Assembly: GCA_945903305.1 (NCBI GenBank)
Contig: CAMDOA010000010.1
Span: 1 to 58,872, forward strand
Source: Chitinophaga pinensis
GTDB lineage: Bacteria; Bacteroidota; Bacteroidia; Chitinophagales; UBA10324
DNA: 58,872 bases
Direction of reading: 5' to 3'
A model generated the notes under the pieces. It ran no database searches and was not told the origin of the DNA. It worked only from the letters and a program-made list of their open reading frames with translations. How positions within the stretch are numbered: the first letter of the stretch is position 1; each line of letters starts with the position of its first letter. Made by a program: the position numbers and the translations under genes. Positions 897-44,115 of the stretch are shown in pieces.

Positions 897-3800
897 TTAC
901 CGAATCAAAGTCACATCACCTTTCAGAATAATCAGATCTCCCTTCATGGTTTCAACTTCGGCATAATAAACAAACACACCGGTATTTACGGGCGAGTTTC
1001 TGAAGGTGCCATCCCATCCCTGATAAATTCCGTTTGACTCAAATACTTTTTCACCGGTTCGGTCATAAATCATCAGGTGAACATTCTGCAGGCTTCTTCC
1101 ATACACATAAAAAATATCGTTTACTCCATCATTATTCGGAGTGAAAGCAGTTGGAATAAAATAATTGATATTCGGAACCACAATAAATTTTCCCATTATA
1201 AAAGTATCAGTACATCCGATGTTGTTATAGGCAATCAACATCACTTCATAATTTCCTGAATCAACATAAGTATGATAAGGCGAAAAAACAGTACTGCTGT
1301 CGCCATCGCCAAAAAACCATTTGTACGAGCTGGCATAAACAGATTTATTAATAAAACTGAATGTGGCATCTTTTATTTCAGTTACTATTTCTGCTTCCGG
1401 TGTTGCAGTAAAATTCGCAACCGGATTATTTAACACTTCAATAAAATTCGGTTTGGTTAATGAATCCACGCAACCTGAGGCTGTGGCGACAATTAATTTC
1501 ACAGTAAAATTTCCGGGGGTATAAGTATGTGTAGGATTTTCGTCGGCACTTGTTCCATCATCACCAAAATGCCAGAGAAACGAATTCCCCAGTAAACTTT
1601 GATTGATAAAGGAGGTAGTAAATGGACTGCAACCCAAACTATCAGTTACAGTAAACGAAACCTGCGGCAACAAATCAATTAAAATAATTTGCGAAATCTG
1701 CGATGAAGTGCAATTATTTTCAGTAACCGAAAGGGTGATTGTATCAATTCCTGAATTTAAAAAATGAATAGAGTAGGGTCCCATTCCTGTTCCTGTATTA
1801 ATTGTTCCGTTATCAAAATTCCAATTGAAAGTTGCTCCGGATGTTGCTGTTCCGTTGTATGTAATCAATGCATCCTGATCAGGACAAATAACAGAAGGTG
1901 AAATTGTAAAATCAGCTGTAGGAACCGGATTTACTATTATAGTATGAGTTGTTACAATTGATGGACAACCATTTTCAGAAACCGTGAGCGTTACATTGTA
2001 AGTACCTGCCGAATTATATTTAATCTGATATGGTCCTTGTCCGCTTCCACTCAAAATTATTCCGCCACCAAAATCCCAAGTGTAAATTCCGGTTGCAGAA
2101 GCGCTTCCTGAATAAGAAATTAATGCGCTGTCTGATTGACAAATTGCAGCAGGTGAATTAAAAGTTGATGTTGGAATCGGGTAAACAATTATGGAATGTG
2201 AAGTAGCCGGAGAAGTGCAGCCATTTTCAATTACTGTTAATGATACATTGTAGTTGCCTGCATTTGTCCAGCTTAAACTATATGGCCCTTGTCCGGGACC
2301 GCCGGTTGATACGGCACTACCGAAATTCCAATTATAAGTTGATGAAGTTGCCGATGTTCCTGCATATGTTGCCGTTGAAATATTTCCTGCACAAATGGAT
2401 GCAGGAGTAAAATTAAAAGCTGAAGAAGGTATTGGATGCACTATCACATTTACTGTTGAAGCAGGAGAAGCGCATCCATTCACTGAAGCAGTAACTGAAT
2501 AATTTCCGGAATGCGCAACAATAGAATTGGCTCTTGTTGGGTTTTGTAAAACAGATGTAAATGCTGAAGGACCTGTCCAGGAATAAGATGCTCCCGTAAT
2601 ATTTCCTGCACTTAAATTAATTGTTTGCCCTGCGCATAAAGGTGAATTACTTGTTGCCCCCGGAGCTAACGGAACAGGTTTTACTAAAACGACAATGCTC
2701 GAAGGCGGACTTGTACAGTTAAATACTTTTACTGTGGCATTGTAAGTTCCGCTTGATGCAAGTGTTGCCGCAGGTATTGTTGGATTCTGTATTGCAGAAG
2801 AAAAACTATTCGGCCCTGTCCAGGCAAAAATTCCGGTTGGAACATTTGCTGCATTTAATTGCAAAGTTTGTCCTGCACAAATCGGACTGTTCGATGATAA
2901 AACCGGAGAAGCCGGAATCGGATGAATAACCACATTTGAAGAAACAGTATTTCCTACACAACCCGCTAAAGTCATAGTGAGCGAATAGCTGCCCATGTTA
3001 CTTGCAACAGTTACATTATTGATTAAAGGATTTTGTTGATTGGAAGTATAACCATTCGGCCCGGTCCATGAATAGGTAGATCCAGCAACCGGTTGCGTGG
3101 TTAGGTTCAGTGTTTGCCCATCGCACAAAGGACCATTATTAACAGGAGTTGCAGGTGGCGATAAATTTATTACAGCATTTGTAGTAGCAGGCAAACTTGT
3201 ACAGCCAAGAACGGTTACAGTTGCATTATAATTTCCTGAATTAGCAAACGGAACATTTGTGATTACAGGATTTTGCAAAAATGAATTATAGTTATTTGGC
3301 CCCGTCCAATGAAAAGTTCCGCCTGTAACATTTTGCGCTGTTAGATTTAAAGTTTGCCCCGAACACATCGGTGCATTATTGCTGATAATTGGTGGAGCAG
3401 GAATTGGATTAACAACAACATTTGTGCTTGATGGATTTCCTAAACATCCATTGGCAGTGGCGATCACGGTAAATGTTCCCGCATTTATTGCTGATGAAAT
3501 GGGTATGATTGGATTTTGTTGTGAAGAAGTAAAACCTGCAGGGCCAATCCATGAATAAGAACCACCGGCAATTGTTGAAGCAAATAATTGAACCGATTGA
3601 CCATTACAAGTCGGACTGTTACTGCTTGCTATTGAATTCGGAGTTGGATAAATGATTACATTGGTAGTAAGCGGCAAACTATTGCAACCATTTACATTTA
3701 TTGTTAATGAATAATTTCCTGCATTGGCAACTATTGTACTTGCGATAACCGGATTTTGTAATGAAGAATTAAATCCACCAGGGCCTGTCCACGAATAGGC

Positions 3801-6218
3801 AGCGCCTGCAACAGTTGCCGCATTCAAATTAAGAGTAAACCCTTGACAAATTGGAGCATTACTTGTCGGAGTTGGTGCCGTTGGTATCGGATTTAAAATA
3901 ACTGTTGTTGTTGATGGAGCACTTAAACATCCGAGTTTAATTATGATGCAGGAATAAACTCCGGCATTGGCAGCAACAGTTGAATTAATAATTGGATTTT
4001 GAAGTGAAGATGTAAATCCATTTGGACCAGTCCATTGATAAGTTGCATTATTTATTGTGGCAGCATTTAATTGCATTGTTGCCCCAAAACAAATCGGACT
4101 GTTATTAGAAAGCACAGGAGCCGCCGGAACAGGATTTATCATTACAGATGTTGTTCCTGCATTTGTATTGGTACATCCGTTTGCAGTTACTGTTAAAGTA
4201 TAAACTCCGCCATTGGTACTTGCTGCATTTGTTATAACAGGATTTTGCAATGCAGAAGAAAATCCATTCGGTCCAACCCATGAATACGAACCACCAACTA
4301 TTGTTGCGGCAAATAAATTTATTGATGTGCCCGGGCAAACCGGACTATTGGAAGTTGGAGTCGCAACCGGTATTGGATAGATAACCACATTGGTTGTAAG
4401 CGGAAGACTATTACATCCATTCACATTTATTGTTAAAGAATAATTTCCTGCATTAGCAGCAGTCGTATTTGGAATTGTTGGATTTTGTTGGTTAGAAGAA
4501 AATCCATTCGGTCCGGTCCATGAATAAGTTGCACCACCGACTAATGCCGCAGTTAAGTTTAATGTATTGCCGGGACAGAAAGGGGCATTGTTCGAAGGAG
4601 TTGGCGCAGTCGGACTTGGAAATAAAATAACATTGGTTGTTGATGAAGCACCTGTGCAACCGAGAACTGTAATAGTGCAAGAATAATTACCGGCATTTGC
4701 TGCAACAGTATTATTGATAACTGGATTTTGAAGTGAAGAGGTAAATCCATTCGGACCGGTCCATGAATAAGTTGCGCCTGCAACCGCAACTGCTGAAAGT
4801 TGTAATGCAGCGCCAACACAAATTGGTGCGTTGCTCAAAATGGTTGGAGCCACAGGAATTGGATTTACAACCAAATTAATGTTTCCGGTATTAGTACTTG
4901 TGCATCCATTTAAAGTAACAGCCAAATGATAAACACCAGAATTTGCGAGGGTTGCATTTGTAATAACAGGATTTTGTTGCGAAGATGAAAAACCATTCGG
5001 GCCTGTCCATGCATAAGTGCCACCGACTACTGTAACAGCATTTAAATTAATTGTTGAACCAACACACAGCGGACTATTGCTTGATGGTGTGGCGACAGGA
5101 ATTGGATTGACAGTAACAATTGCAGTGGCGGTATCAGCGCATGGATAGCCTTTATTCACTATCAACTTCGCAGTATATGTTCCGGCGGTGTTATAGGTGT
5201 ATGTTGGAGAAAATAAAATTGAAGTGTCTGAAGTTCCTGCCACACCAAAATCCCAGAAATAATAGGTAGCAGCTGTACTGGTGTTAGGAAAAGTCAGCGG
5301 GGCTCCTTTACAAACTGTAAAAGTGGGAGGAATAATGGCGTTCACATTTTGAATACATTGAACAACATTGAATTGAAAATCTCGGTAGTGAGAACTTAAT
5401 AAAACTCCGTTTCTATATTCTTTTACACAAACACCCACTACAAATTGCCCAAGCGTATTTGGCACACCGGTAATCATTCCGTTTGATGTATTAATAGTTA
5501 CCTGGGGCGAACCACCAACCGGGTTACTAAAAGTATAACCTCCGGTAAATGGGATGGGGGTATAAGGTGGGGGCGAAGCAGGTGATGGAGTTGGATTACC
5601 CTGGCCACCGCCATTAAAAGGATTAAAAAAACTATAAACCAATTGGTCGCCGTCTATATCAGTTGCCACATGATTAAACACAAGTGGCTCATTAACGCAA
5701 ATGCAAGTCGGTGGGAAATTGGTAAACTCAGGACTGCTGTTTCCAACGGCAATAGCTGATGGAGGTATTGAGGCCATAAAAGTAGCGCCATAAGTATTCG
5801 GGTTGCTTACATTTAAGATGGTGCCATTTCTACAACATCTTTGATAGACTAATGTATATCCGCCGGCCAAAGGCGGAAGCACTTTATTGGTGGTATAAAC
5901 AGCAGCTTCAACACAAATATTGGGTGGAGTGGTTAGGCAAATATTCCCGGTGTTATTTGGAATTGAAATGGGTCCTGGAAAATTGATATCAATCGAATCA
6001 ATTAAGGCAAGGGTAGTAGAATTGAAAAAATAAACAGTGATTGGATTGTCAAAATTTGTTTGTGCATTACAATCTCTGTATAGCTCTAATTTTATCTGGT
6101 AAACATTATTGCCTAAAAACTTATAAGTCAATTCCCCACCAACTATATGAGTTGCTTTTGATTGAATTGGATGTAACCAAAACAAAAACGCAAATAGCAG
6201 AAGGAGGGTTTGCTTCAT
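897..6218 (-). CDS. Giant secreted adhesin-like repeat protein with Ig-like and PKD modules and a type B T9SS sorting domain
   Basis: This 1773-residue protein starts with a signal peptide (about residues 1-21) followed by THIVGGELTYKF, a stretch typical of the N-terminus of large Bacteroidota surface proteins. Residues about 370-1263 hold eleven Ig-like modules of about 81 residues, each with a cysteine pair and a YSWTGPNGF-type centre. Three PKD-like modules with NWNFG or TWDFG cores follow, then two classic PKD domains (LWHFGDDG, KWFFGDGD). The last 91 residues, from NINYFIPTAFTPNNDG, form the gliding-motility-associated type B C-terminal domain (CHU_C/TIGR04131), which routes the protein through the T9SS. 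No catalytic domain is visible, so an adhesive or structural surface role is the likely inference. The protein belongs to a widespread family type, but its ligand cannot be read from sequence. Confidence 0.9.
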   Translation of the reverse strand: MKQTLLLLFAFLFWLHPIQSKATHIVGGELTYKFLGNNVYQIKLELYRDCNAQTNFDNPITVYFFNSTTLALIDSIDINFPGPISIPNNTGNICLTTPPNICVEAAVYTTNKVLPPLAGGYTLVYQRCCRNGTILNVSNPNTYGATFMASIPPSAIAVGNSSPEFTNFPPTCICVNEPLVFNHVATDIDGDQLVYSFFNPFNGGGQGNPTPSPASPPPYTPIPFTGGYTFSNPVGGSPQVTINTSNGMITGVPNTLGQFVVGVCVKEYRNGVLLSSHYRDFQFNVVQCIQNVNAIIPPTFTVCKGAPLTFPNTSTAATYYFWDFGVAGTSDTSILFSPTYTYNTAGTYTAKLIVNKGYPCADTATAIVTVNPIPVATPSSNSPLCVGSTINLNAVTVVGGTYAWTGPNGFSSSQQNPVITNATLANSGVYHLAVTLNGCTSTNTGNINLVVNPIPVAPTILSNAPICVGAALQLSAVAVAGATYSWTGPNGFTSSLQNPVINNTVAANAGNYSCTITVLGCTGASSTTNVILFPSPTAPTPSNNAPFCPGNTLNLTAALVGGATYSWTGPNGFSSNQQNPTIPNTTAANAGNYSLTINVNGCNSLPLTTNVVIYPIPVATPTSNSPVCPGTSINLFAATIVGGSYSWVGPNGFSSALQNPVITNAASTNGGVYTLTVTANGCTNTNAGTTSVMINPVPAAPVLSNNSPICFGATMQLNAATINNATYQWTGPNGFTSSLQNPIINSTVAANAGVYSCIIIKLGCLSAPSTTTVILNPIPTAPTPTSNAPICQGFTLNLNAATVAGAAYSWTGPGGFNSSLQNPVIASTIVANAGNYSLTINVNGCNSLPLTTNVIIYPTPNSIASSNSPTCNGQSVQLFASTIAGGSYSWIGPAGFTSSQQNPIIPISSAINAGTFTVIATANGCLGNPSSTNVVVNPIPAPPIISNNAPMCSGQTLNLTAQNVTGGTFHWTGPNNYNSFLQNPVITNVPFANSGNYNATVTVLGCTSLPATTNAVINLSPPATPVNNGPLCDGQTLNLTTQPVAGSTYSWTGPNGYTSNQQNPLINNVTVASNMGSYSLTMTLAGCVGNTVSSNVVIHPIPASPVLSSNSPICAGQTLQLNAANVPTGIFAWTGPNSFSSAIQNPTIPAATLASSGTYNATVKVFNCTSPPSSIVVLVKPVPLAPGATSNSPLCAGQTINLSAGNITGASYSWTGPSAFTSVLQNPTRANSIVAHSGNYSVTASVNGCASPASTVNVIVHPIPSSAFNFTPASICAGNISTATYAGTSATSSTYNWNFGSAVSTGGPGQGPYSLSWTNAGNYNVSLTVIENGCTSPATSHSIIVYPIPTSTFNSPAAICQSDSALISYSGSASATGIYTWDFGGGIILSGSGQGPYQIKYNSAGTYNVTLTVSENGCPSIVTTHTIIVNPVPTADFTISPSVICPDQDALITYNGTATSGATFNWNFDNGTINTGTGMGPYSIHFLNSGIDTITLSVTENNCTSSQISQIILIDLLPQVSFTVTDSLGCSPFTTSFINQSLLGNSFLWHFGDDGTSADENPTHTYTPGNFTVKLIVATASGCVDSLTKPNFIEVLNNPVANFTATPEAEIVTEIKDATFSFINKSVYASSYKWFFGDGDSSTVFSPYHTYVDSGNYEVMLIAYNNIGCTDTFIMGKFIVVPNINYFIPTAFTPNNDGVNDIFYVYGRSLQNVHLMIYDRTGEKVFESNGIYQGWDGTFRNSPVNTGVFVYYAEVETMKGDLIILKGDVTLIR
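2430..5110. repeat. Eleven in-frame tandem repeats of about 243 bp encoding Ig-like modules
   Basis: The stretch encodes eleven consecutive modules of about 81 residues, each with the order PIP, SNSPxCxG, NLxA, YSWTGPNGF, QNPxI, NAGxYS and NGC. Modules 1, 4 and 7 resemble each other, as do 2, 5, 8 and 3, 6, 9. This gives a three-module super-repeat of about 730 bp, with modules 10 and 11 diverged. Modules 3 and 6 share an almost identical run from NAGNYSLTINVNGCNSLPL onwards. Confidence 0.85.
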
Positions 6219-6268: not shown

Positions 6269-8188
6269 TTAGTGTTTCACAAATCTTACACTATCATGAC
6301 TATTGCCTGAATTTAAATTGATTTCATAAAGGCCTGAAGCAAAATCTTTCAGGTTTATTGTTTCGTTCATTTGCTTGTTAATTGGTGAAGCGAAATTTTT
6401 TATCATAACAATCTGCCCCAATGAATTCACAATACTCAATTCGGTCTTTTCATTTTTTATTACAAAATTCAAATGCAATAAATTATCAGTAACCGGATTC
6501 GGATAAATCAAAAATTGTTGGTTGTTTGAAAGTTCATTTATTCCATCAGGAAAAACAGATAATTGTATTTGAATAGTATCACCACCCGGGCAACCGGCGC
6601 TTGTTACAACTAATGTTACAGTATAAGCACCAGTTCCACTGAAAGTGTAAATCGGATTTTGATTACTGCTTCCGTTTCCATCTCCAAAATTCCACGACCA
6701 GCTTGATGCGTTAAAGGAACTGTCGTGAAACAAAACTGTATTGCCATTCATGGTGTAACCAAAATTTGCAGTTACATCTTGTGTAACAACAATTATCAAT
6801 GATGAATCAGTAGTACTGCATCCGGTATTGTTGCTTGTAACAGTTATTGTATAAGTTGTAGTTGTGGTTGGGTTCACCTGTGTATTATTTGTTGTAATTC
6901 CTCCGGGGTTCCATAAATAAGTATTTCCACCACCACCTCCTCCGCCACCAGAGCCAGAAGCAAGATTTACAGTGCTTCCTGTACATACAGTATCGTCCGA
7001 AGATGTTGGGTTAATGTTTGGACCATTTGCCACTGTAATATTTAAAGTAGCTGAAGCAGCACAACCAGAAGTATCAGTTCCGGTAACAGTATAAATTGTA
7101 TTTGTTCCCGGTGTTGCAAAAACAAGATCGCCGGTTGAATTATCTAATCCGGTTGATGGACTCCATGTGTATGTAGTAGCTCCGGTAACAGAAAGAATAA
7201 CGGGATCTCCGCCATTGCAAAATGCAGCCCCGCCATTTGGTGCAACAGTTAAAACAGGAAGTGGCGAAGTACTCACATTTATTGAAGTAACTGCAGATGT
7301 ATCAGCACTGGCAGAATTCGAGCAGCTGATATAACAACGGAAATAAGTGGTGGCTGTTAATGTATTTGAAGTATAAGTTGCCACATCAAATGCTTCATTA
7401 GTCCACGGACCTGTGGCACTTAATGAACTTTGCCATACAATAGAAATTCCCGATGCACCGGTTGTTTGTCCGGTTATAGCTAAAGTTGTTGTTCCGCTTC
7501 CGTCACAAATTAATATGGGATTTGCATTTAAGTTTCCAATTGTTGGCGTGCCGGTACATTGCGGAGGATAAGAAGTCCATGAAACATTATCAATAAAAAT
7601 ATGATTTCCCGAATGGCCTTCCCCGCTAAAAATTAAATAGTTTGTATTTGTATTAAATGATTGCGGCACATCGAACGAATAAAAGTACCAACCAAAAATG
7701 CTAACGGTATCGGGCAAATTATAGCTTGCCAAGCGGGCAATAGCTCCTAATCGAACCGCACCGGTTAAGTCGTTTATTGTATTCACCATTAGTGTTAAAC
7801 TATCAATGGAATTAACCAAACCTGTATCACGATACATCCAGAAAGAAAGCGTGGCGGTATCTGTTGCTGTTAATCCTGAATAGTCAATTACCGGAGTAAA
7901 CATAGCTTGTGTACTTATGCCGGTATAACTATGGCTGCTGAATCGGGCCATTCCCGCTCCACTGAAAGGTGCGGCAATAGGTGGAAATGTTGCATTCGTA
8001 CGGCGAACCCAGATATCACCAGGATTTCCACCGATACCAACCGGAGTATTTAAAGTCCAGCCAGTTGCCGGAAACGCTAGGGCATCAAAACTTTCGGAAT
8101 TGACAATTTGCGCAGAAGAATAATTAATATTAATCATCAACAAAAGACAGGCAGAAAATACATAAATCAGGAACGGATTCTTTTTCAT
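6269..8188 (-). CDS. Choice-of-anchor J protein with PKD domain and type A T9SS sorting domain
   Basis: This 639-residue secreted protein has a signal peptide ending near NYSSAQ. Residues about 30-210 look like a choice-of-anchor J / MAM-like jelly-roll domain: ESFDALAFPATGW near the start and HIFIDNVSW near the end. Ig-like segments follow, then a glycine run (about residues 413-420), a PKD domain with WSWNFGDGNG, and a type A T9SS C-terminal domain starting at FLIYPNPVTDN and ending in SVRFVKH. No enzymatic motif is visible; adhesion or carbohydrate binding is inference only. It lies 50 bases upstream of the giant repeat protein on the same strand. A TATTCTTG sequence about 50 bases upstream of the ATG is a one-mismatch -7 box. 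Confidence 0.85.
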   Translation of the reverse strand: MKKNPFLIYVFSACLLLMININYSSAQIVNSESFDALAFPATGWTLNTPVGIGGNPGDIWVRRTNATFPPIAAPFSGAGMARFSSHSYTGISTQAMFTPVIDYSGLTATDTATLSFWMYRDTGLVNSIDSLTLMVNTINDLTGAVRLGAIARLASYNLPDTVSIFGWYFYSFDVPQSFNTNTNYLIFSGEGHSGNHIFIDNVSWTSYPPQCTGTPTIGNLNANPILICDGSGTTTLAITGQTTGASGISIVWQSSLSATGPWTNEAFDVATYTSNTLTATTYFRCYISCSNSASADTSAVTSINVSTSPLPVLTVAPNGGAAFCNGGDPVILSVTGATTYTWSPSTGLDNSTGDLVFATPGTNTIYTVTGTDTSGCAASATLNITVANGPNINPTSSDDTVCTGSTVNLASGSGGGGGGGGNTYLWNPGGITTNNTQVNPTTTTTYTITVTSNNTGCSTTDSSLIIVVTQDVTANFGYTMNGNTVLFHDSSFNASSWSWNFGDGNGSSNQNPIYTFSGTGAYTVTLVVTSAGCPGGDTIQIQLSVFPDGINELSNNQQFLIYPNPVTDNLLHLNFVIKNEKTELSIVNSLGQIVMIKNFASPINKQMNETINLKDFASGLYEINLNSGNSHDSVRFVKH

Positions 8189-36734: not shown

Positions 36735-39700
36735 TTAAAAATCTGTTCCGAAAGAAAAATACCAGAGTCCTTTATTCAATACTCCACTATCCCATCCTCG
36801 CGCATAATCAAGTTTAATAAAATATCCAAACAAATTTGTTCGCGCACCGCCGCCAAAACCGGCAACTAAGGGCTCACGAAAATAATTGACCTGAACAGTT
36901 ATCGGACCTTCAGAAATAACTGCTGTATTAAAAGGATTGCTTTCGCTGTATGGCGAAAAACCCTGCCACCCGGTTCCGGCATCGGCAAAGGCAACCAATT
37001 GAAAATTTCTTATAAACTCAGAGCGGATTGGTGAGTTAAATAAATAACTGAATACAGGAAAACGGATTTCAGTATTGACCAGTGCAAATGAGTTTCCGTT
37101 TCGAATGTTTTGTTCAAATCCGCGTAGGTTGGTGGCTAATGTTTGAAATGCATAATTGGCTGTTGTGCTCACCGGTGTTGATGTGTTAAACTTTGAATTT
37201 ATCCATCCATCTATTCCACCAACATAATAAACTATTTTGCCATCGCCCCAGGAGGAAGCACCAGTAAACCGGGTTGCCCAAATAATATTCCGATGAATTT
37301 TTTGATAATGACGAAAATCGACTCCGGCCACAAATAACATTGGACCATTTTTAATTGCCATACCCATAACATCAGTATAAATTTTATATCGGGTGCCATC
37401 AAGAATATTATTCTGGATTTTTAAAGTGTTATCAAAAACATACTCGCCTCTGATGGAAACCCAGTTTTCTGTATAATTATCTAATCCTAAACTAAAACTA
37501 TCGGAACTCAGAAACACCAATTGCTCCATTCGGTAAGCCGCAATTCCCCGGATACTTTTTGTATAATCTAACGGATAACGATAGGCTGCTTCAAAATAGT
37601 TTGTTTTTGATTTTGCATAAACCGGATACGACCAAAACGGATTAGCATCATAAGGCGGCTTGGTTTCTGATTTTCTATAGAAAGTATATTTTTTATCGAG
37701 GCGTTTTTTTCGATCATCGAACGAAAAAAAATATTCGTTTCCGCCTAAATTAGTAGGTAGCCTGAAACCACCTGTAAAGCGATAATCTTCGAACAAATCG
37801 GCAGTGCTTAGTTTAATTAACCCGTTTAATCCCGGATTTATAAATTGACCTCCGTTAGGTGCAAAGCTCTGATAACGGTTAATGATTAAGTTATTATCCA
37901 ACTGAGAAACTACATAATCAGTTGAGAAACGCGGTGAGTAGGGTAGTATTTTACTAAACTTAATTCTCCATATTTTTTTCGCATTCAATTCCTGTTTTTC
38001 TTCTTCTTCTTTATTCTTAAAAGATATGACCGGTTTTTGAGAAAATTCGCTTTGGAAAATATAATTGTTGATGTCAATTTTTAAGGTATCAGGCGTGGAT
38101 TTTATACTGTCAACAGCCGTGGCGGGAAGTAATTTTTTTTTCTTTTCTTCCAGCAATTGCTTATCGTTTAATTGCTGAATATATTGAGTGTTTGGAATTG
38201 AATTGTTTTTGCCGGTATTTATTTCTGATAAATTTTTTGTTTGAATAAAATAATATTTTCCATTGTCGTAATATAATTCGGCCATCTTGCCGGCTTTCAA
38301 TGCATGCTCCTGTTCAAGAATACTGTTGTCGTAATTTGTATTGCTGAATGAATGTGCCACATCGCGATACATCGGGATTTTTTTTGTGGAATCAGGTAGA
38401 ATATTTCCGTTTGCGATTAATGAATCCATATTGTATTTCGGATTCAGAATAACCGAATCGGCGAAATAATAAAAGTGATTATAATGATCAAACACTGAAT
38501 CAATGTATGCGACATATCGATTATTGATACCGTTTTTATCACTGGTGTAAGAGAAAAAATAATCGTTGTATCCGGTGGCATTTCTTTCATCGGCATTGGG
38601 AGTATTGGTTACGCGGGTTATAATTTTATCTTTTGTTTTCAAATTGAAATAAAATAAATCGAAAGTTCCCAGAGGCATTATCGTATCTAATTTCAATGTG
38701 CGAAGTGTATCATCCATTCGGTTTGAACTCCACAACACAATGGTTCGGTTTGTTAGTTTTACAAAGTGCGGATCCAGATCATCATAAAAATCATTGGTAA
38801 TCTGATCAATTTTTCCCGACAAATAATTCAGGATATAAATATCGCTCTGGCTTTTGTTCACGGCGCTCATTACAATTGATTTCGGATCGGCGCCAAATGA
38901 AATGCTCAGTATCTTTTGAAAGTTGGTGATTTCTCTTTCTGTTTTTTTCTTCTTCTCAAAATCATAAACCACAATAAATACTTTGCCCTTTTTCTCCACA
39001 ATCATGGCCAGTTTATTTCCGGTTGGATCCCAGGCGGTTAACGGATAGGAATAGTCAACTGGCTGTGTGATATTTTTAAAACCGCCACGCAAATAAGTGC
39101 GGCGGCGCTTTTTTTCGATGTTATAAATCTTCACTTTATATTTGCCTAATACATTTTCGCAATAAGCAACCCGTTCAAAAGTGGGATCGGGTTTAAATTG
39201 ATAATATTTTCTTCCTTTCCTTGTTTTCACTGAAACTTTATCGAGCGTGGTTGGATCGATTTTTACCGATTGTTCCAATGCATACTGATTCCCGTAATAA
39301 TTATTGAAGTCAGCAATTAATTGTTTTAAAGTTTTTCCAATTACGAAATTGAATCCACTCTCGACACTTCGATTAATGCGTGTGAGGTATAAAATATTGG
39401 GAATGGAAGTGGCGCCATAATTTCTGGCGATGTAATACCATAATGCCTGCCCGGCAAATTTTGCATCTTCTCCAGTGAGGCGATTAAAATTTTTGTATTT
39501 ACCCGTTAGAACTCCGATTCGTAATCGGTTATCTAATTCAGTACTCCAGTCTTTTCCAATGTAAGATGCTAAACCTTCGGTGTACCACAAGGGTAAATTC
39601 AAAAGCACCGCATTTTGCAAAACCTCCTGAATGTTTCCACCAAACATCATGTTATCCAAACAAATTTTTGCAATGCCTTCCCGAATCTGAATTAATAAAT

Positions 39701-40097
39701 CGTTGTGATTGCCATTGAAATAAACAAACATTTTGTTGCCGATAATTTTGGTGGTGCCTCCGGTATTATTTTGTTCCACACCATAACCAATGTTCGATTG
39801 TTTCAAATCGCTGAGGTTATTGTAAATGAGAATATCAATGTTGTCGTTCACTTTATATTCGAGTGCATTCTCTACACTTTCAATTTGCCGTTCGCCTTCG
39901 GTAATTACAAATTTTCCAAGGTCTTGACCACCCAAATAAAAATAAACTGCGAAGCGATCTGATTTATAAAACGACCAGATGAAATCGCTGTACTGAACAC
40001 GGTTTTGTCCGAACTCTTCCTCTGTGGTTTGAGCCAATAACGGTGAACTCAAAAAAGAAAGGATGAAAAAGAAAAATAATGACCTCAGTATTTTCAT
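36735..40097 (-). CDS. Large outer-membrane protein: gluzincin-like domain, TolB-like propeller and Omp85-type barrel
   Basis: The 1120-residue protein has a signal peptide (MKILRSLFFFFILSFLSSPLLAQ). Residues about 45-280 resemble a peptidase-MA/gluzincin fold, with LPLWYTEGLASYIG. However, the expected HExxH helix reads IREGIAKICL, so the zinc ligands are lost. Residues about 290-600 contain TolB/PD40-type beta-propeller strands (YPLTAWDPTGNKLAMIVEKK, SDIYILNYLSGKIDQIT). The C-terminal 350 residues look like an Omp85/surface-antigen barrel with the LRGFEQNIRNG loop, NTEIRFPVF, FADAGTGW and a final strand ending SFGTDF. The start at 40097 replaces a longer one at 40124, which would lie within a -7 promoter box. 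Function is unknown; assembly or docking at the outer membrane is inference. Confidence 0.72.
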   Translation of the reverse strand: MKILRSLFFFFILSFLSSPLLAQTTEEEFGQNRVQYSDFIWSFYKSDRFAVYFYLGGQDLGKFVITEGERQIESVENALEYKVNDNIDILIYNNLSDLKQSNIGYGVEQNNTGGTTKIIGNKMFVYFNGNHNDLLIQIREGIAKICLDNMMFGGNIQEVLQNAVLLNLPLWYTEGLASYIGKDWSTELDNRLRIGVLTGKYKNFNRLTGEDAKFAGQALWYYIARNYGATSIPNILYLTRINRSVESGFNFVIGKTLKQLIADFNNYYGNQYALEQSVKIDPTTLDKVSVKTRKGRKYYQFKPDPTFERVAYCENVLGKYKVKIYNIEKKRRRTYLRGGFKNITQPVDYSYPLTAWDPTGNKLAMIVEKKGKVFIVVYDFEKKKKTEREITNFQKILSISFGADPKSIVMSAVNKSQSDIYILNYLSGKIDQITNDFYDDLDPHFVKLTNRTIVLWSSNRMDDTLRTLKLDTIMPLGTFDLFYFNLKTKDKIITRVTNTPNADERNATGYNDYFFSYTSDKNGINNRYVAYIDSVFDHYNHFYYFADSVILNPKYNMDSLIANGNILPDSTKKIPMYRDVAHSFSNTNYDNSILEQEHALKAGKMAELYYDNGKYYFIQTKNLSEINTGKNNSIPNTQYIQQLNDKQLLEEKKKKLLPATAVDSIKSTPDTLKIDINNYIFQSEFSQKPVISFKNKEEEEKQELNAKKIWRIKFSKILPYSPRFSTDYVVSQLDNNLIINRYQSFAPNGGQFINPGLNGLIKLSTADLFEDYRFTGGFRLPTNLGGNEYFFSFDDRKKRLDKKYTFYRKSETKPPYDANPFWSYPVYAKSKTNYFEAAYRYPLDYTKSIRGIAAYRMEQLVFLSSDSFSLGLDNYTENWVSIRGEYVFDNTLKIQNNILDGTRYKIYTDVMGMAIKNGPMLFVAGVDFRHYQKIHRNIIWATRFTGASSWGDGKIVYYVGGIDGWINSKFNTSTPVSTTANYAFQTLATNLRGFEQNIRNGNSFALVNTEIRFPVFSYLFNSPIRSEFIRNFQLVAFADAGTGWQGFSPYSESNPFNTAVISEGPITVQVNYFREPLVAGFGGGARTNLFGYFIKLDYARGWDSGVLNKGLWYFSFGTDF

Positions 40098-40104
40098 TGC
40101 TGTA

Positions 40105-40112
40105 CAAATATA
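40105..40112 (-). promoter_or_regulatory. -7 promoter element of the propeller/barrel gene
   Basis: The minus strand reads TATATTTG, an exact TAnnTTTG match, seven bases before the ATG at 40097. This excludes the alternative start at 40124 and implies a very short or absent leader. Confidence 0.65.
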
Positions 40113-40194
40113 ATCACTTCGCATTGATGAACAGATTTGAAAAAAGATTTTGCCCTTTGATATAGAAATAAAATTTACAACTCATTTTTGCTCC

Positions 40195-40854
40195 ATGCTT
40201 CAAACTCACTTTTTCACATTCAATCCTTTTCAGGAAAACACTTATATATTATTTGACGAAACAAACGAATGCGTCATTATTGACCCAGGATGTAGTGATG
40301 ATTCGGAGCGAAATGAACTCACTCAATTTATTTCAACCAACCAACTGAAACCTGTTTTGTTGATTAACACCCACTCGCATTTAGATCACATGCTTGGAAA
40401 CAGTTTTATAAAGCAGACTTACAACATTCCGTTTCTGCTGCATAAAAATGAATTACCCATTTTGCATTCGGCCGTGGAAACAGGTCGCAAGTATAGTGTT
40501 GTAATAACTCCATCACCCGAACCCGATCGTTTTATTGTGGATGAAGAAATTGTTTGCTTCGGAAAAACAGAATTGAAAACTTTATTTACTCCCGGTCATG
40601 CTCCCGGTGAAGTTTCTTTTTATCACGCCGAATCAAAAACATTAATTGCCGGCGATGTGTTGTTCAATGGAAGTATCGGAAGATATGATTTCCCATTGAG
40701 CGATTATGAAATACTGATGCAAAGTATTTTTAATAAACTATTAGTGCTGCCTGATGATGTGAAAGTTTATTGCGGACATGGTTCACCAACAACCATTGGG
40801 AAAGAACGAAGAGGCAATCCGTATTTATTGGAGTATGCAGATGGATTGAAATAA
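40195..40854 (+). CDS. MBL-fold metallo-hydrolase (glyoxalase II-like)
   Basis: The 219-residue protein has the metallo-beta-lactamase fold with an intact HxHxDH metal motif in INTHSHLDHMLGN. TLFTPGHAPGEVSFYH, LIAGDVLFNGSIGRYDFP and VYCGHGSPTTIGKERRGNPY complete the zinc-binding set, a layout seen in hydroxyacylglutathione hydrolase-like enzymes. The substrate is probably a thioester or related compound but is not determined. A TTG at 40150 would extend the frame by 15 residues. The ATG at 40195 is preferred because MLQTHFFTFNPFQENTYIL is the usual family start. CATTTTTG lies just upstream, one base from the -7 consensus. Confidence 0.9.
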   Translation: MLQTHFFTFNPFQENTYILFDETNECVIIDPGCSDDSERNELTQFISTNQLKPVLLINTHSHLDHMLGNSFIKQTYNIPFLLHKNELPILHSAVETGRKYSVVITPSPEPDRFIVDEEIVCFGKTELKTLFTPGHAPGEVSFYHAESKTLIAGDVLFNGSIGRYDFPLSDYEILMQSIFNKLLVLPDDVKVYCGHGSPTTIGKERRGNPYLLEYADGLK

Positions 40855-40973: not shown

Positions 40974-41372
40974 TTAAAAGGGTAAATCATCATTGCCATT
41001 TGGTGCAGCAGGCATTGATGATGGAGAAGCCTGATTGCTGTATGAGGGAGTGGCTTGATTGTAACTGTTATTATTTGAGTTGCTGTTTGAAGAAGCGCCG
41101 CTGCTGATATCAATTTTCCACGCTTTGATATCGGAGTACCACTTACCATTAAATTCTCTTGATTCAAGATTGAAACCGATTCTTAATTCAATACCAGGTT
41201 GGTAATTTGCTACCTGATCCGCCCTTTCTCCAAAGCAAATGATGCAAACTTTTTTTGGGAATTGTTCAATTGTTTCAATAATCATATCGCGTTTTTTCCA
41301 GTCGCCACGCGCACTTTTGCCAGCTACTTCCTGATTTACCTGAATGAGTTTTCCAATTAATTCGAGTGTCAT
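40974..41372 (-). CDS. DUF3127 domain protein with SSB-like acidic tail
   Basis: The 132-residue protein has a compact N-terminal domain (MTLELIGKLIQVNQEV, then RGDWKKRDMIIETIEQFPKK and GIELRIGFNLESREFNGKWY), a low-complexity Ser/Asn linker, and the tip DDLPF. The N-terminal part has the look of DUF3127, an OB-fold-like family in Bacteroidota. The tip resembles that of single-stranded DNA-binding proteins, which bind partner proteins. A role in DNA metabolism is therefore inferred. The start at 41372 is preferred because a perfect -7 box (41391-41398) overlaps the longer alternative start at 41393. Confidence 0.85.
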   Translation of the reverse strand: MTLELIGKLIQVNQEVAGKSARGDWKKRDMIIETIEQFPKKVCIICFGERADQVANYQPGIELRIGFNLESREFNGKWYSDIKAWKIDISSGASSNSNSNNNSYNQATPSYSNQASPSSMPAAPNGNDDLPF

Positions 41373-41482: not shown

Positions 41483-43492
41483 TCAATTTTCTGTTTTTCT
41501 CCCAATGTTTCTTAAAGATTTGAAAATAATTTCGAAATCGCGAGCAACCGAATAATTTCTTGCATATAAAAGATTTAATCGGTTTGTGGCATCTATTGAT
41601 GTTTTTTTTGATAGCAGATCGGCCGGATTTAAAATTCCATTTTTTATTTTAGGTAAAGCCCCTGATTGTTCGCTAGCATATCCCACCCAGGTTTTTTTTC
41701 CTATGAAAACAGTGAATAAATTATTCAAAAGGCCGGTAAAATTCTTTACTAAAAATAAATTTAGAGGCAGTGTGATAAAAAGAAAAATACAAACCAGTAT
41801 ATCCAGCAGCCGCTTGTTTCTTCTATTGTTAGGCAAATCAATTTGCATGTTGATGTCGATGGTGTAGAGTTCGCCATTTGTGTCTTTCGAACCTGAGCCA
41901 ATCACACTCATGCTTTCTTCGGGAACAATTTTATAATCCACCCTTCCACCAATATCAACCATGTGACTGATGATTTGCTGCGACGAAATATCTTTCGAAC
42001 AAAAAATAATTTCATCAGGTCGATACAGCTCAACTAAATCGGTTAGCTGATTTAAATGACCAAGCCGCTCTTCTTCGCGCAATTCATTTGGATACGATTC
42101 TGAATCGGGCAACACAAAGCCAAGGTGCTGAAAATTTATTCGTGCATTGTTGAGCAATTGGTAAACTCTTTTTCCTTCCACATAACTTCCAGTAATCACA
42201 ATCTTGCGCTGAAACTCTTCGCCCCATCCAAAATGTCCGAAGCGAAAATAATGTCGGATGAATCTCCAACTTGTGAGAAAGAAGACTCCAAAAACAAATC
42301 CGAGTAAAATCATTCCGCGAGAGAAGCGAAGCGAGTCATCTAGGAATCCATAAACCGCTGCGATAATTAATGTTCCAATGACTAAACCACGAATAATTTT
42401 TCCCGGTTTCGAATTGCGATCATAACCTCCACTGAAAAAAATACTGAGCAACCACACAGCAATGTAAACAGGCACAATAATGAAAATGTATTGCGGCGGA
42501 TAACTCACCCCTTCTGTTGCTTTCACTTTTGTTTCCCACAAATTTTTGAAGAACAACATGGCAGCATATAAACCAACGGCATCAAACGATGGTGCAGCAA
42601 TTTTATCTAAAAACCTTTTAATCAACGATAGTGCGGCGCGGAAATAAATGGCTACTTGCAGCATCAGAATTAATCCATGAGCACTGCCTTGCGAAAAGTG
42701 TTTGCGTGCGAAAATGATCATCGCCATATAAAACATACGCACATAATTGAGCGAACCCTTCTTGGTGCTCTCACCTTTGTAATGAATGATTCGTGTGTCG
42801 GCGAGGTAATAATTTTTATGGCCGGCTTTTATTACGCGATACGAAAGATCAATGTCTTCGCCATACATAAAAAAAGTTTCGTCGAGCAAACCGATTTCAT
42901 CCAACACTTTTTTACGCAATAGCATAAATGCTCCGGCTAATACCTCCACTTCATGATTTTCATCGCGAGAAAGATGACCGAGATAATAGCGGGCAAAAGT
43001 TTTTGACTTCGGAAATAATTTCGTAAAGCCAAATGCTTTGAAGAAAGCAACCGTTGGTGTTGGAAAACCACGCTTCGATTCAGGTAGAAAATTTCCGGAG
43101 CCATCGAGCATTTTCACACCTAGTGCGCCTGCATCTTCATGTGCATCCATAAATGCAACACATTTTTCAAAAGTATCTTCTTCAACAACCGTATCAGGAT
43201 TCAACAGCAAAACATATTCTCCTTTCGCCAATCGAATTGCCTGATTATTTGCCTTAGCAAAACCGGTGTTGTCTTTATTTTCAATGAGAATTATTTCTTC
43301 GGATCCGCCAGAGGTCGGATTGGCTGCGCCAAATTTTTCTTTCACCAACTGCACCGAGCCATCCACCGAATGATTATCAACCACAAAAATTTCTACCGAA
43401 AGATTGCGCGATGCTTTACGCACCGATTGCAATGCCTGCTCTAAAAAGAACTTGACATTGTAGTTGACAATAATGACCGAGAGTTTAATCAT
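41483..43492 (-). CDS. GT2 glycosyltransferase fused to a sugar-phosphotransferase-like module lacking its catalytic core
   Basis: The 669-residue protein starts with a family 2 glycosyltransferase (SVIIVNYNVKFFLEQALQSV, VDNHSVDGS, LNPDTVVEEDTF, FMYGEDIDLSYRVI). Membrane segments follow from about residue 265 to 410, then a nucleotide-binding-like domain (RKIVITGSYVEGKRVYQLL, then PDEIIFCSKDISSQQIISH). The last 120 residues, from RNKRLLDILVCIFLFITLPL to LLYARNYSVARDFEIIFKSL, match both ends of a polyprenyl glycosylphosphotransferase. The catalytic centre between them (KFRSM and the DElPQ region) is missing. Residues about 56-67 (AANPTSGGSEE) are an in-frame insertion of a palindromic repeat. 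The protein probably makes surface polysaccharide. It overlaps recR by 4 bases. Confidence 0.82.
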   Translation of the reverse strand: MIKLSVIIVNYNVKFFLEQALQSVRKASRNLSVEIFVVDNHSVDGSVQLVKEKFGAANPTSGGSEEIILIENKDNTGFAKANNQAIRLAKGEYVLLLNPDTVVEEDTFEKCVAFMDAHEDAGALGVKMLDGSGNFLPESKRGFPTPTVAFFKAFGFTKLFPKSKTFARYYLGHLSRDENHEVEVLAGAFMLLRKKVLDEIGLLDETFFMYGEDIDLSYRVIKAGHKNYYLADTRIIHYKGESTKKGSLNYVRMFYMAMIIFARKHFSQGSAHGLILMLQVAIYFRAALSLIKRFLDKIAAPSFDAVGLYAAMLFFKNLWETKVKATEGVSYPPQYIFIIVPVYIAVWLLSIFFSGGYDRNSKPGKIIRGLVIGTLIIAAVYGFLDDSLRFSRGMILLGFVFGVFFLTSWRFIRHYFRFGHFGWGEEFQRKIVITGSYVEGKRVYQLLNNARINFQHLGFVLPDSESYPNELREEERLGHLNQLTDLVELYRPDEIIFCSKDISSQQIISHMVDIGGRVDYKIVPEESMSVIGSGSKDTNGELYTIDINMQIDLPNNRRNKRLLDILVCIFLFITLPLNLFLVKNFTGLLNNLFTVFIGKKTWVGYASEQSGALPKIKNGILNPADLLSKKTSIDATNRLNLLYARNYSVARDFEIIFKSLRNIGRKTEN
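43298..43330. repeat. Palindromic repeat inside the glycosyltransferase gene
   Basis: The segment contains the exact palindrome CGGATCCG and a hairpin ATCCGCC-AGA-GGTCGGAT with a one-base bulge. It encodes an extra stretch of about 12 residues in the GT2 domain. Its TCCGCC core matches the palindromes at 33958-33996 (polA) and 40875-40902. Confidence 0.6.
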
Positions 43493-44115
43493 TCGCGGTT
43501 CACAAGATAATTTTCATACGGCAGCCGTGTGGCAATCGAGCGAGCGAGTGTTAAATCATCTACATATTCCAATTCGCCACCGAAAGCCATTCCGCGTGCA
43601 AGTGTGGTGATTTTCACATTGGGGAACTGATGCAGTTTTCTTGAGAGATAAAAAATAGTAGTGTCGCCTTCCATGGTTGCATTCAACGCCATAATCACCT
43701 CTTCTATTTCATTGCTGGCAGTGCGATGAATGAGCGACTCAATATTCAACTGGTCGGGTCCGATGCCTTCGAGTGGAGAAATCACACCGCCCAACACATG
43801 GTACAAACCATTGTATTGATTCACTGATTCGATGGCAATTACATCACGAAAATTTTCGACCACGCACACGAGTGAACGATTGCGCGCATGACTGTTACAG
43901 ATGTTGCATTGCTCGCCATCAGAAATATTATGACAGGTTTTACAAAATTTTATTTCATTACGCATTTTAGCAATGCGACCGGAAAACTGATTGACCGATT
44001 CCGGATTCTGGCGCAACAGGTGAAGCACCAGGCGCAATGCACTTCTGCGTCCAATGCCCGGCAGTTTTTCAAATTCGCTCACAGCATCCTCAATCAATCG
44101 AGATGGAAAATTCAT
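43489..44115 (-). CDS. recR: Recombination mediator protein RecR
   Basis: The 208-residue protein works with RecO and RecF to load RecA at single-stranded DNA gaps. It has the helix-hairpin-helix start (FEKLPGIGRRSALRL), the four-cysteine zinc finger C58, C61, C70 and C73, and a Toprim domain with VCVVENFRDVIAIE, then GLYHVLGGVISPLEGIGPDQL and LARGMAFGGELEYVD. The length is typical. Its stop overlaps the start of the glycosyltransferase gene (ATGA), so the two are translationally coupled. A TATTTTCG -7-like box lies four bases upstream of the ATG. Confidence 0.97.
   Translation of the reverse strand: MNFPSRLIEDAVSEFEKLPGIGRRSALRLVLHLLRQNPESVNQFSGRIAKMRNEIKFCKTCHNISDGEQCNICNSHARNRSLVCVVENFRDVIAIESVNQYNGLYHVLGGVISPLEGIGPDQLNIESLIHRTASNEIEEVIMALNATMEGDTTIFYLSRKLHQFPNVKITTLARGMAFGGELEYVDDLTLARSIATRLPYENYLVNRE

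Follow-up and report, generated by a model that had tools for sequence, protein, structure and literature searches.

What would a bacterium gain from a single polypeptide that joins a metallopeptidase fold, a TolB-type propeller and an Omp85-type outer-membrane barrel? The question is raised by a gene at positions 36735 to 40097 of a 58,872-nucleotide stretch of a Chitinophaga pinensis assembly (GCA_945903305.1, contig CAMDOA010000010.1), which is the whole stretch of DNA that was analysed and is called the window below. Predicted structures indicate that the chain is such a three-part protein, its family spans the phylum, and the zinc motif of its N-terminal domain is kept outside the window's class and missing inside it. 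In relatives from outside the class the gene often stands in an operon-like row with a TamB-like gene, a hint that the protein takes part in outer-membrane assembly. Our reading, tentative and somewhat short of probable, is that the family may provide an outer-membrane partner of a TamB bridge, similar to the barrel of the translocation and assembly module (TAM), with a protease and a propeller replacing the POTRA domains. The gene and the parts of its product are as follows.

36735..40097, minus strand: whole gene, 1120 aa plus stop, frame open throughout
40032..40097, minus strand: signal peptide, residues 1-22, a hydrophobic N-terminus read by eye from the translation
39264..40019, minus strand: gluzincin-fold domain, predicted inactive, residues 27-278, from a separate model with Foldseek and VIA
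39666..39680, minus strand: HExxH register, residues 140-144, EGIAK in the window protein, from the alignment
39576..39578, minus strand: third zinc-ligand position, Glu174, retained in the window protein
38232..39254, minus strand: TolB-type beta-propeller, about residues 282-622, from VIA and TIGR02800
37935..38231, minus strand: linker, mostly low-confidence, residues 623-721, no POTRA seen
36738..37934, minus strand: Omp85-type beta-barrel, residues 722-1120, with a C-terminal Phe, from VIA against BamA 8xnb
37107..37127, minus strand: LRGFEQN, from residue 991, at the Omp85 loop-6 RGF/Y position
36966..36989, minus strand: FADAGTGW, from residue 1037, at the Omp85 FxDxG strand position

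The three-part division rests on predicted structures and on fold searches of the parts. The full chain was modelled with AlphaFold2 using 38 sequences (residue numbers of the model follow the mature protein), giving a mean predicted local distance difference test score (pLDDT) of 81.6 and a predicted template modelling score of 0.78, with pLDDT below 50 in the stretch from propeller to barrel at residues 636-688. In VIA comparisons the barrel (mature residues ~703-1098) reached Z 25.5 against Deinococcus radiodurans BamA 8xnb over 322 residues at 4.2 Å, and the 50 Foldseek rows shown for the full-chain model were BamA, BAM or TamA entries, the best being BamA and TamA. The propeller (mature residues ~260-591) reached Z 23.0 against TolB-like 2ojh over 246 residues at 3.0 Å, and the propeller matches among the 50 VIA rows shown were TolB chains at Z about 23. 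For the N-terminal domain, modelled separately (pLDDT 83.7), Foldseek gave five matches at E <0.001, all to clostridial collagenase peptidase domains (best E 7.3e-5), and the 50 VIA rows shown were all peptidases of the collagenase, M30 and M1 types, which we take to belong to the gluzincin clan. The best VIA score of this domain was Z 15.1 (7wss, 223 residues, 4.4 Å), to be read against the Z of ~13 that helical folds may reach without kinship; we accept the gluzincin fold because the Peptidase_MA_2 matches found in relatives agree with it. The fusion proposed in an earlier note, made from the letters of this DNA, is thus borne out, and both the C-terminal barrel and the N-terminal gluzincin fold, the lack of either of which had been named beforehand as refuting it, are present in the predicted models.

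Conserved sequence features are consistent with these folds. What we take to be the defining Omp85 motifs, loop-6 RG(F/Y) and FxDxG, occur in 154 and 172 of 176 homologues respectively (LRGF and FADAG in the window protein), and the last residue is Phe in 167. All the motifs that had been quoted for the window protein are in its translation, behind an N-terminus that by eye resembles a signal peptide: IREGIAKICL starts at residue 138, LPLWYTEGLASYIG at residue 168 and NTEIRFPVF at residue 1008. Chance resemblance of these motifs was considered and ruled out, given the same folds in both models and the spread of the family through the phylum.

Family libraries see little of this in the window protein alone. 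A Pfam scan of it gave no PD40, Peptidase_MA or Omp85 match; NCBIfam gave the TolB propeller TIGR02800 at E 5.6e-11 and 42 bits, far under the cut-off of 343, and the best PDB sequences were TolB chains at E 0.004. Among 38 aligned family members, PD40 was matched by 20, Peptidase_MA_2 by 14, DPPIV_N by 13 and Omp85 by 2, so that the kinships first suspected from motifs are weak for the single query and appear when the family is taken together. The 22 Pfam families matched by these members at E 0.01 include no POTRA family.

Nor is the family limited to a few proteins. The window protein as query had matches in 193 genomes out of a phylum-wide sample of 296, and a family profile found matches in 280 of 295 genomes of the window's class at E <= 1e-5. 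We call members from that class in-class and those from the rest of the phylum out-of-class. Profile matches were absent or weak in the family codes f5, f6, f12, f76 and most of f7, and the weak ones perhaps reflect the propeller only. In the window's own genome (G000) the window protein had one match; the profile gave a second, weaker one besides the gene at 36735-40097. A scan of viral_contigs with the single window protein gave eight pattern matches and no relative. The 176 homologues extracted comprise 36 out-of-class and 140 in-class members, the latter being the window, 80 close-relative loci and 59 others. The close relatives are the best 80 of at least 528; those with names are mostly Chitinophagaceae and kin, and the 80 were kept apart from a diverse in-class set (n=60, including the window). 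L063, which overlaps L049, and the 10-base stubs L067 and L069 were left out; the sequences of L038 and L061 start at late start codons.

The N-terminal domain divides this family in two. HExxH was found in 36/36 out-of-class and 0/140 in-class members, an exact split across the alignment, and the three residues H140, E141 and H144 in window register are present in all 36. Two further out-of-class members, L217 and L228, which stand outside the neighbour counts (n=36) and the tree, likewise have HExxH and the third-ligand Glu, making 38 of 38 examined. This Glu is kept in 36/36 out-of-class members and in 10 of the 60 diverse in-class members. The window protein is among the ten: the alignment confirms that IREGIAKICL stands where HExxH would be expected, with EGIAK in the register itself, and Glu174 is the one zinc ligand retained. 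The earlier description of a dead protease therefore holds for the window's class and fails for the family, and the possibility that it wanted checked, a motif lost in every homologue, proved wrong.

On a 101-member tree (built without the N-domain by a quick method, unrooted and with no bootstrap) a single change accounts for the HExxH trait, and the branch that carries it has a Shimodaira-Hasegawa-like approximate likelihood ratio (SH-aLRT) value of 100. The natural direction of this change on an unrooted tree would be loss within the window's class, because the gluzincin clan consists in general of zinc enzymes. The N-domain has a mean pairwise identity of 56.4% among zinc-bearing members against 38.6% among diverse in-class members, the propeller 44.0% against 33.0% and the barrel 43.8% against 40.0%; as the two sets were sampled differently, the lower in-class sequence identity is only suggestive of relaxed constraint.

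A zinc site kept so strictly invites comparison with BepA, which is a separate polypeptide with tetratricopeptide repeats and belongs to a peptidase family other than that of the gluzincin N-domain. If the analogy holds, both would place an HExxH metalloprotease near an Omp85 barrel, in BepA an M48 enzyme at BAM (PMC13067283); the window protein, in contrast, lacks the zinc motif. The gluzincin domain tethered to the barrel might then remove bad outer-membrane proteins, the in-class pseudoprotease only binding clients. The intact site in 38/38 out-of-class members, the Peptidase_MA_2 matches in 14/38, and an in-class drop in identity that is larger in the N-domain than in propeller or barrel are all consistent with such quality control. 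We nevertheless think it unlikely as an account of the family, since the class retains a conserved barrel without the zinc site, which rules the protease out as the core function there, and since a simple tether would have no need of the conserved Omp85 loop-6 motif.

The genes that accompany the barrel-protein gene outside the class point instead towards TamB. At 19 of the 36 zinc-bearing loci the gene immediately upstream, in the same orientation, is that of RNase R, and at 17 of the 36 the order on one strand is TamB-like gene (~1500 aa), RNase R, barrel-protein gene. These 17 loci represent nine family codes, and at one of them the TamB-like gene is a 146-aa fragment where the contig ends; on the tree the linkage needs five changes. 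Neighbours in the row mostly overlap or stand a few tens of bases apart, stop and start codons often overlapping. Scanned whole in Pfam, the ~1500-aa neighbours gave AsmA/DUF748 only and no TamB; when their C-terminal parts were scanned, TamB (PF04357) was matched in 4/8, at E down to 5.4e-37, and the remaining 4/8 were assigned by alignment, at 14-41% identity to its first row. At L049 (932-5620), the TamB domain missed by the whole-length Pfam scan was found with the C-terminal part at 5e-37; domains can be hidden in scans of long proteins. An alignment of 16 TamB-like proteins has an invariant terminal Phe, preceded by what by eye appears to be a last strand of outer-membrane protein type. 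An in-frame TGA in two linked TamB-like genes was considered and dropped, as the G014 frame is whole and the TGA lies before its start.

A wider count agrees with this linkage. Among 78 out-of-class genomes with positions listed for both genes (f24 is over-represented), the best TamB-like gene among the matches listed lies within 6 kb of the barrel-protein gene in 53, and, at a TamB-like score of at least 780 bits, in 52/58. One of the 53, G125, has the two genes adjacent and divergent; G062 was counted as non-adjacent although a TamB fragment adjoins the gene at a contig end (L051). PF04357 was also searched in six frames in 13 out-of-class genomes, nine of which have the linked gene. It matched that gene over the cut-off in five of the nine (G227, G047, G022, G001 and G236), and in G047, G001 and G236, with all first-look candidates scored, the linked gene is the sole match. 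G065 and G227 each contain a further TamB match at 3.4-3.5 kb from a further Omp85 match, both on one strand, so that in these genomes every TamB seems to be paired with a barrel gene of its own; in G022 the other TamB match is likewise near an Omp85 match, but the latter is in a 79-aa frame. The window's genome has two TamB matches and two Pfam Omp85 matches, each on contigs other than the window's.

Pairing of a TamB gene with an Omp85 gene in one operon is described elsewhere for TamA-TamB and TamL2-TamB2 (PMC12045153), and TamL has been reported in operons with TamB (PMC4494059). The TamB row, a barrel with intact Omp85 motifs and the missing POTRA domains together suggest that the family offers an alternative outer-membrane end for the TamB bridge. 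The barrel would work in the manner of TamA or TamL, as the terminus in the outer membrane of a TamB-like bridge that spans the envelope, and the propeller and gluzincin domains may act as a docking and checking module beneath it. By analogy with BepA at BAM, the zinc-bearing gluzincin domain would probably clip misfolded or stalled clients at the barrel. The zinc site would then have been lost in a single event at the origin of the window's class, where the domain may be retained as a binding module, and the window protein may keep the same role despite a locus of its own that lacks a TamB gene. The bolder proposal that these proteins are a third kind of TAM, its TamB bridge ported by a protease-propeller-Omp85 chain, with a zinc protease guarding the port in most of the phylum, switched off once at the root of one class where the port was also uncoupled from a dedicated TamB, strikes us as possible but rather doubtful. 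Among the roles first put forward, assembly, secretion or surface display, assembly is the best fit, given the operon with TamB in relatives, and nothing was found for secretion or display.

Several observations weigh against a TamB partnership. The row is absent from 19 of the 36 zinc-bearing loci, and a search with a TamB-like profile gave no match in the flanks retrieved for the 140 in-class loci, including the window, flanks that vary in length and lie in part on short contigs. PF04357 gave no match to the linked gene in four of the nine genomes (G148, G263, G065 and G014), which slightly lowers our confidence. Between the TamB-like and barrel genes stands that of RNase R, an enzyme of the cytoplasm, and the row may therefore reflect shared regulation only. 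The known contacts of such barrels with partners are made by POTRA domains, and none was found in the family. Finally, tamL and tamB in Bacteroidota are reported not to be in one operon (PMC12045153), so that in this phylum TAM partners cannot safely be read from the order of genes.

Outside Proteobacteria the routes by which lipids and proteins are delivered to the outer membrane are an open question. TamB is present in many bacteria that have neither TamA nor TamL (PMC4494059), and a barrel gene that is widespread and shares a gene row with TamB is a concrete candidate for its partner. The clean switch from protease to pseudoprotease at one node is in addition an experiment made by nature, from which the purpose of the protease might be learned.

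The barrel could also act independently of TamB, as an additional insertase of outer-membrane proteins, a BamA-BamB-like fusion with its propeller in the part of BamB. This was proposed in 2014 for 'WD40-Omp85' proteins (PMC4104836), and conservation of the barrel and its motifs would be expected of such an insertase. It appears quite unlikely to us, given that the recurrent gene row is with TamB and that the propeller rows are TolB chains, with no BamB among the 50 rows shown, which does not exclude one further down. Still less likely is a Tol-Pal stand-in that ties the outer membrane to the cell wall, its propeller binding a Pal-like peptidoglycan protein and its barrel serving as anchor: the propeller comes nearest to TolB in both structure and sequence, and TolB is held to derive from OMP-TolB-like proteins (PMC12204202), but no Tol-Pal gene is among the recurrent neighbours scanned with Pfam (a subset of neighbour clusters), and an anchor would have no need of insertase-type barrel motifs.

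The earlier note took propellers and Omp85 proteins to be normally separate chains. Fusions of the two are not new, having been published as the 'WD40-Omp85' subfamily by Heinz and Lithgow in 2014 (PMC4104836) and as the 'OMP-TolB-like' clade in 2025 (PMC12204202). The former, compared by description, likewise has an N-terminal TolB-like propeller joined to an Omp85 barrel and no POTRA, and the available part of the paper mentions no gluzincin domain, HExxH loss or TamB operon. The latter shares the barrel, a periplasmic TolB-like propeller and an adjacent domain, but the adjacent domain is called a Rossmann fold there, whereas the N-domain of our family has a predicted gluzincin fold; a Balneolaceae TolB-like protein is presented in the same paper as a form left after barrel loss. 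TolB itself has the same type of propeller (Z about 23), but no barrel and no gluzincin domain, and the N-domain of the family is of gluzincin fold rather than that of the TolB N-terminal domain. With TamA and TamL the family shares the Omp85 barrel, and a same-strand TamB-like gene accompanies it at 17 of the 36 zinc-bearing loci and was found at none of the in-class ones; it differs in having the gluzincin-propeller module in place of any POTRA found; no lipobox Cys was seen by eye in residues 1-30 of the window translation, unlike the TamL-type lipoprotein signal. The propeller-Omp85 architecture is thus already known, and the gluzincin identity, the single zinc-site loss and the TamB-RNase R row appear to be new. 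In a literature search that covered no preprints and few subscription papers, the available texts gave no description of the gluzincin domain, its loss or the TamB-RNase R row, or of this set of domains together with TamB, and no paper came up that brought together Peptidase_MA_2 and Omp85, or a peptidase MA domain and PD40 at the outer membrane.

Inside the class the neighbours are of another kind. The divergent neighbour of the barrel-protein gene in the window is as follows.

40195..40854, plus strand: metallo-beta-lactamase (MBL)-fold hydrolase gene, PF00753 at E 9.8e-28 (scanned one codon earlier), divergent

Its ATG is 97 bases from that of the barrel-protein gene. When nine neighbouring window genes were used as queries over 117 loci, the MBL gene was the only one to recur, the other eight being found in none. 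By tblastn it was present at 80/80 close-relative loci and 20 of the 37 others; by reading frames it is the first divergent neighbour at 79/80 close-relative loci and is found at 40/60 diverse in-class loci, in first place at 34 and in second at 6. Beyond it, at six or seven loci, come a CDP-alcohol phosphatidyltransferase, a PorU-type C25 peptidase and PorV, and two further in-class loci have PorU and PorV in a different arrangement. A part in the type IX secretion system (T9SS) was considered and is doubted; PorU- and PorV-type genes are nearby in 9/60 diverse in-class loci. In another in-class group a TauE-type gene (19/60) and an M20 peptidase (24/60) come next. None of these neighbours points to one function. 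At eight in-class loci (L041, L044, L045, L054, L056, L058, L059 and L068) the barrel-protein gene is immediately preceded, on its own strand, by an FAD-dependent oxidoreductase (DAO) gene, which at six of these loci separates it from the MBL gene.

Some further features of the window may be recorded. The ATG at 40097 is an internal start, as the frame is already open from an ATG at 40124. The sequence TATATTTG at 40105-40112 on the minus strand, presumably similar to the Bacteroidota -7 element, lies seven bases before the ATG at 40097 and would put the transcript start almost at that ATG. Across the window the pattern TAHHTTTG occurs 22 times, fewer than the mean of 61 in shuffled sequence. 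The neighbours of the barrel-protein gene in the window are of EamA, CMD, MBL, DUF3127 and glycosyltransferase type, with no Tol-Pal operon. The DUF3127 protein (40974-41363, minus strand) has a low-complexity tail ending Asp-Asp-Leu-Pro-Phe, which we take to resemble that of single-strand DNA-binding proteins, and a gene named by eye as recR-like lies at 43489-44115. Two large PKD-domain proteins are encoded on the minus strand at 897-6218 and 6269-8188: the first, which also has Ig-like domains, ends in CHU_C, and the second in Por_Secre_tail, a type IX secretion signal, and the organism therefore has T9SS-type cargo.

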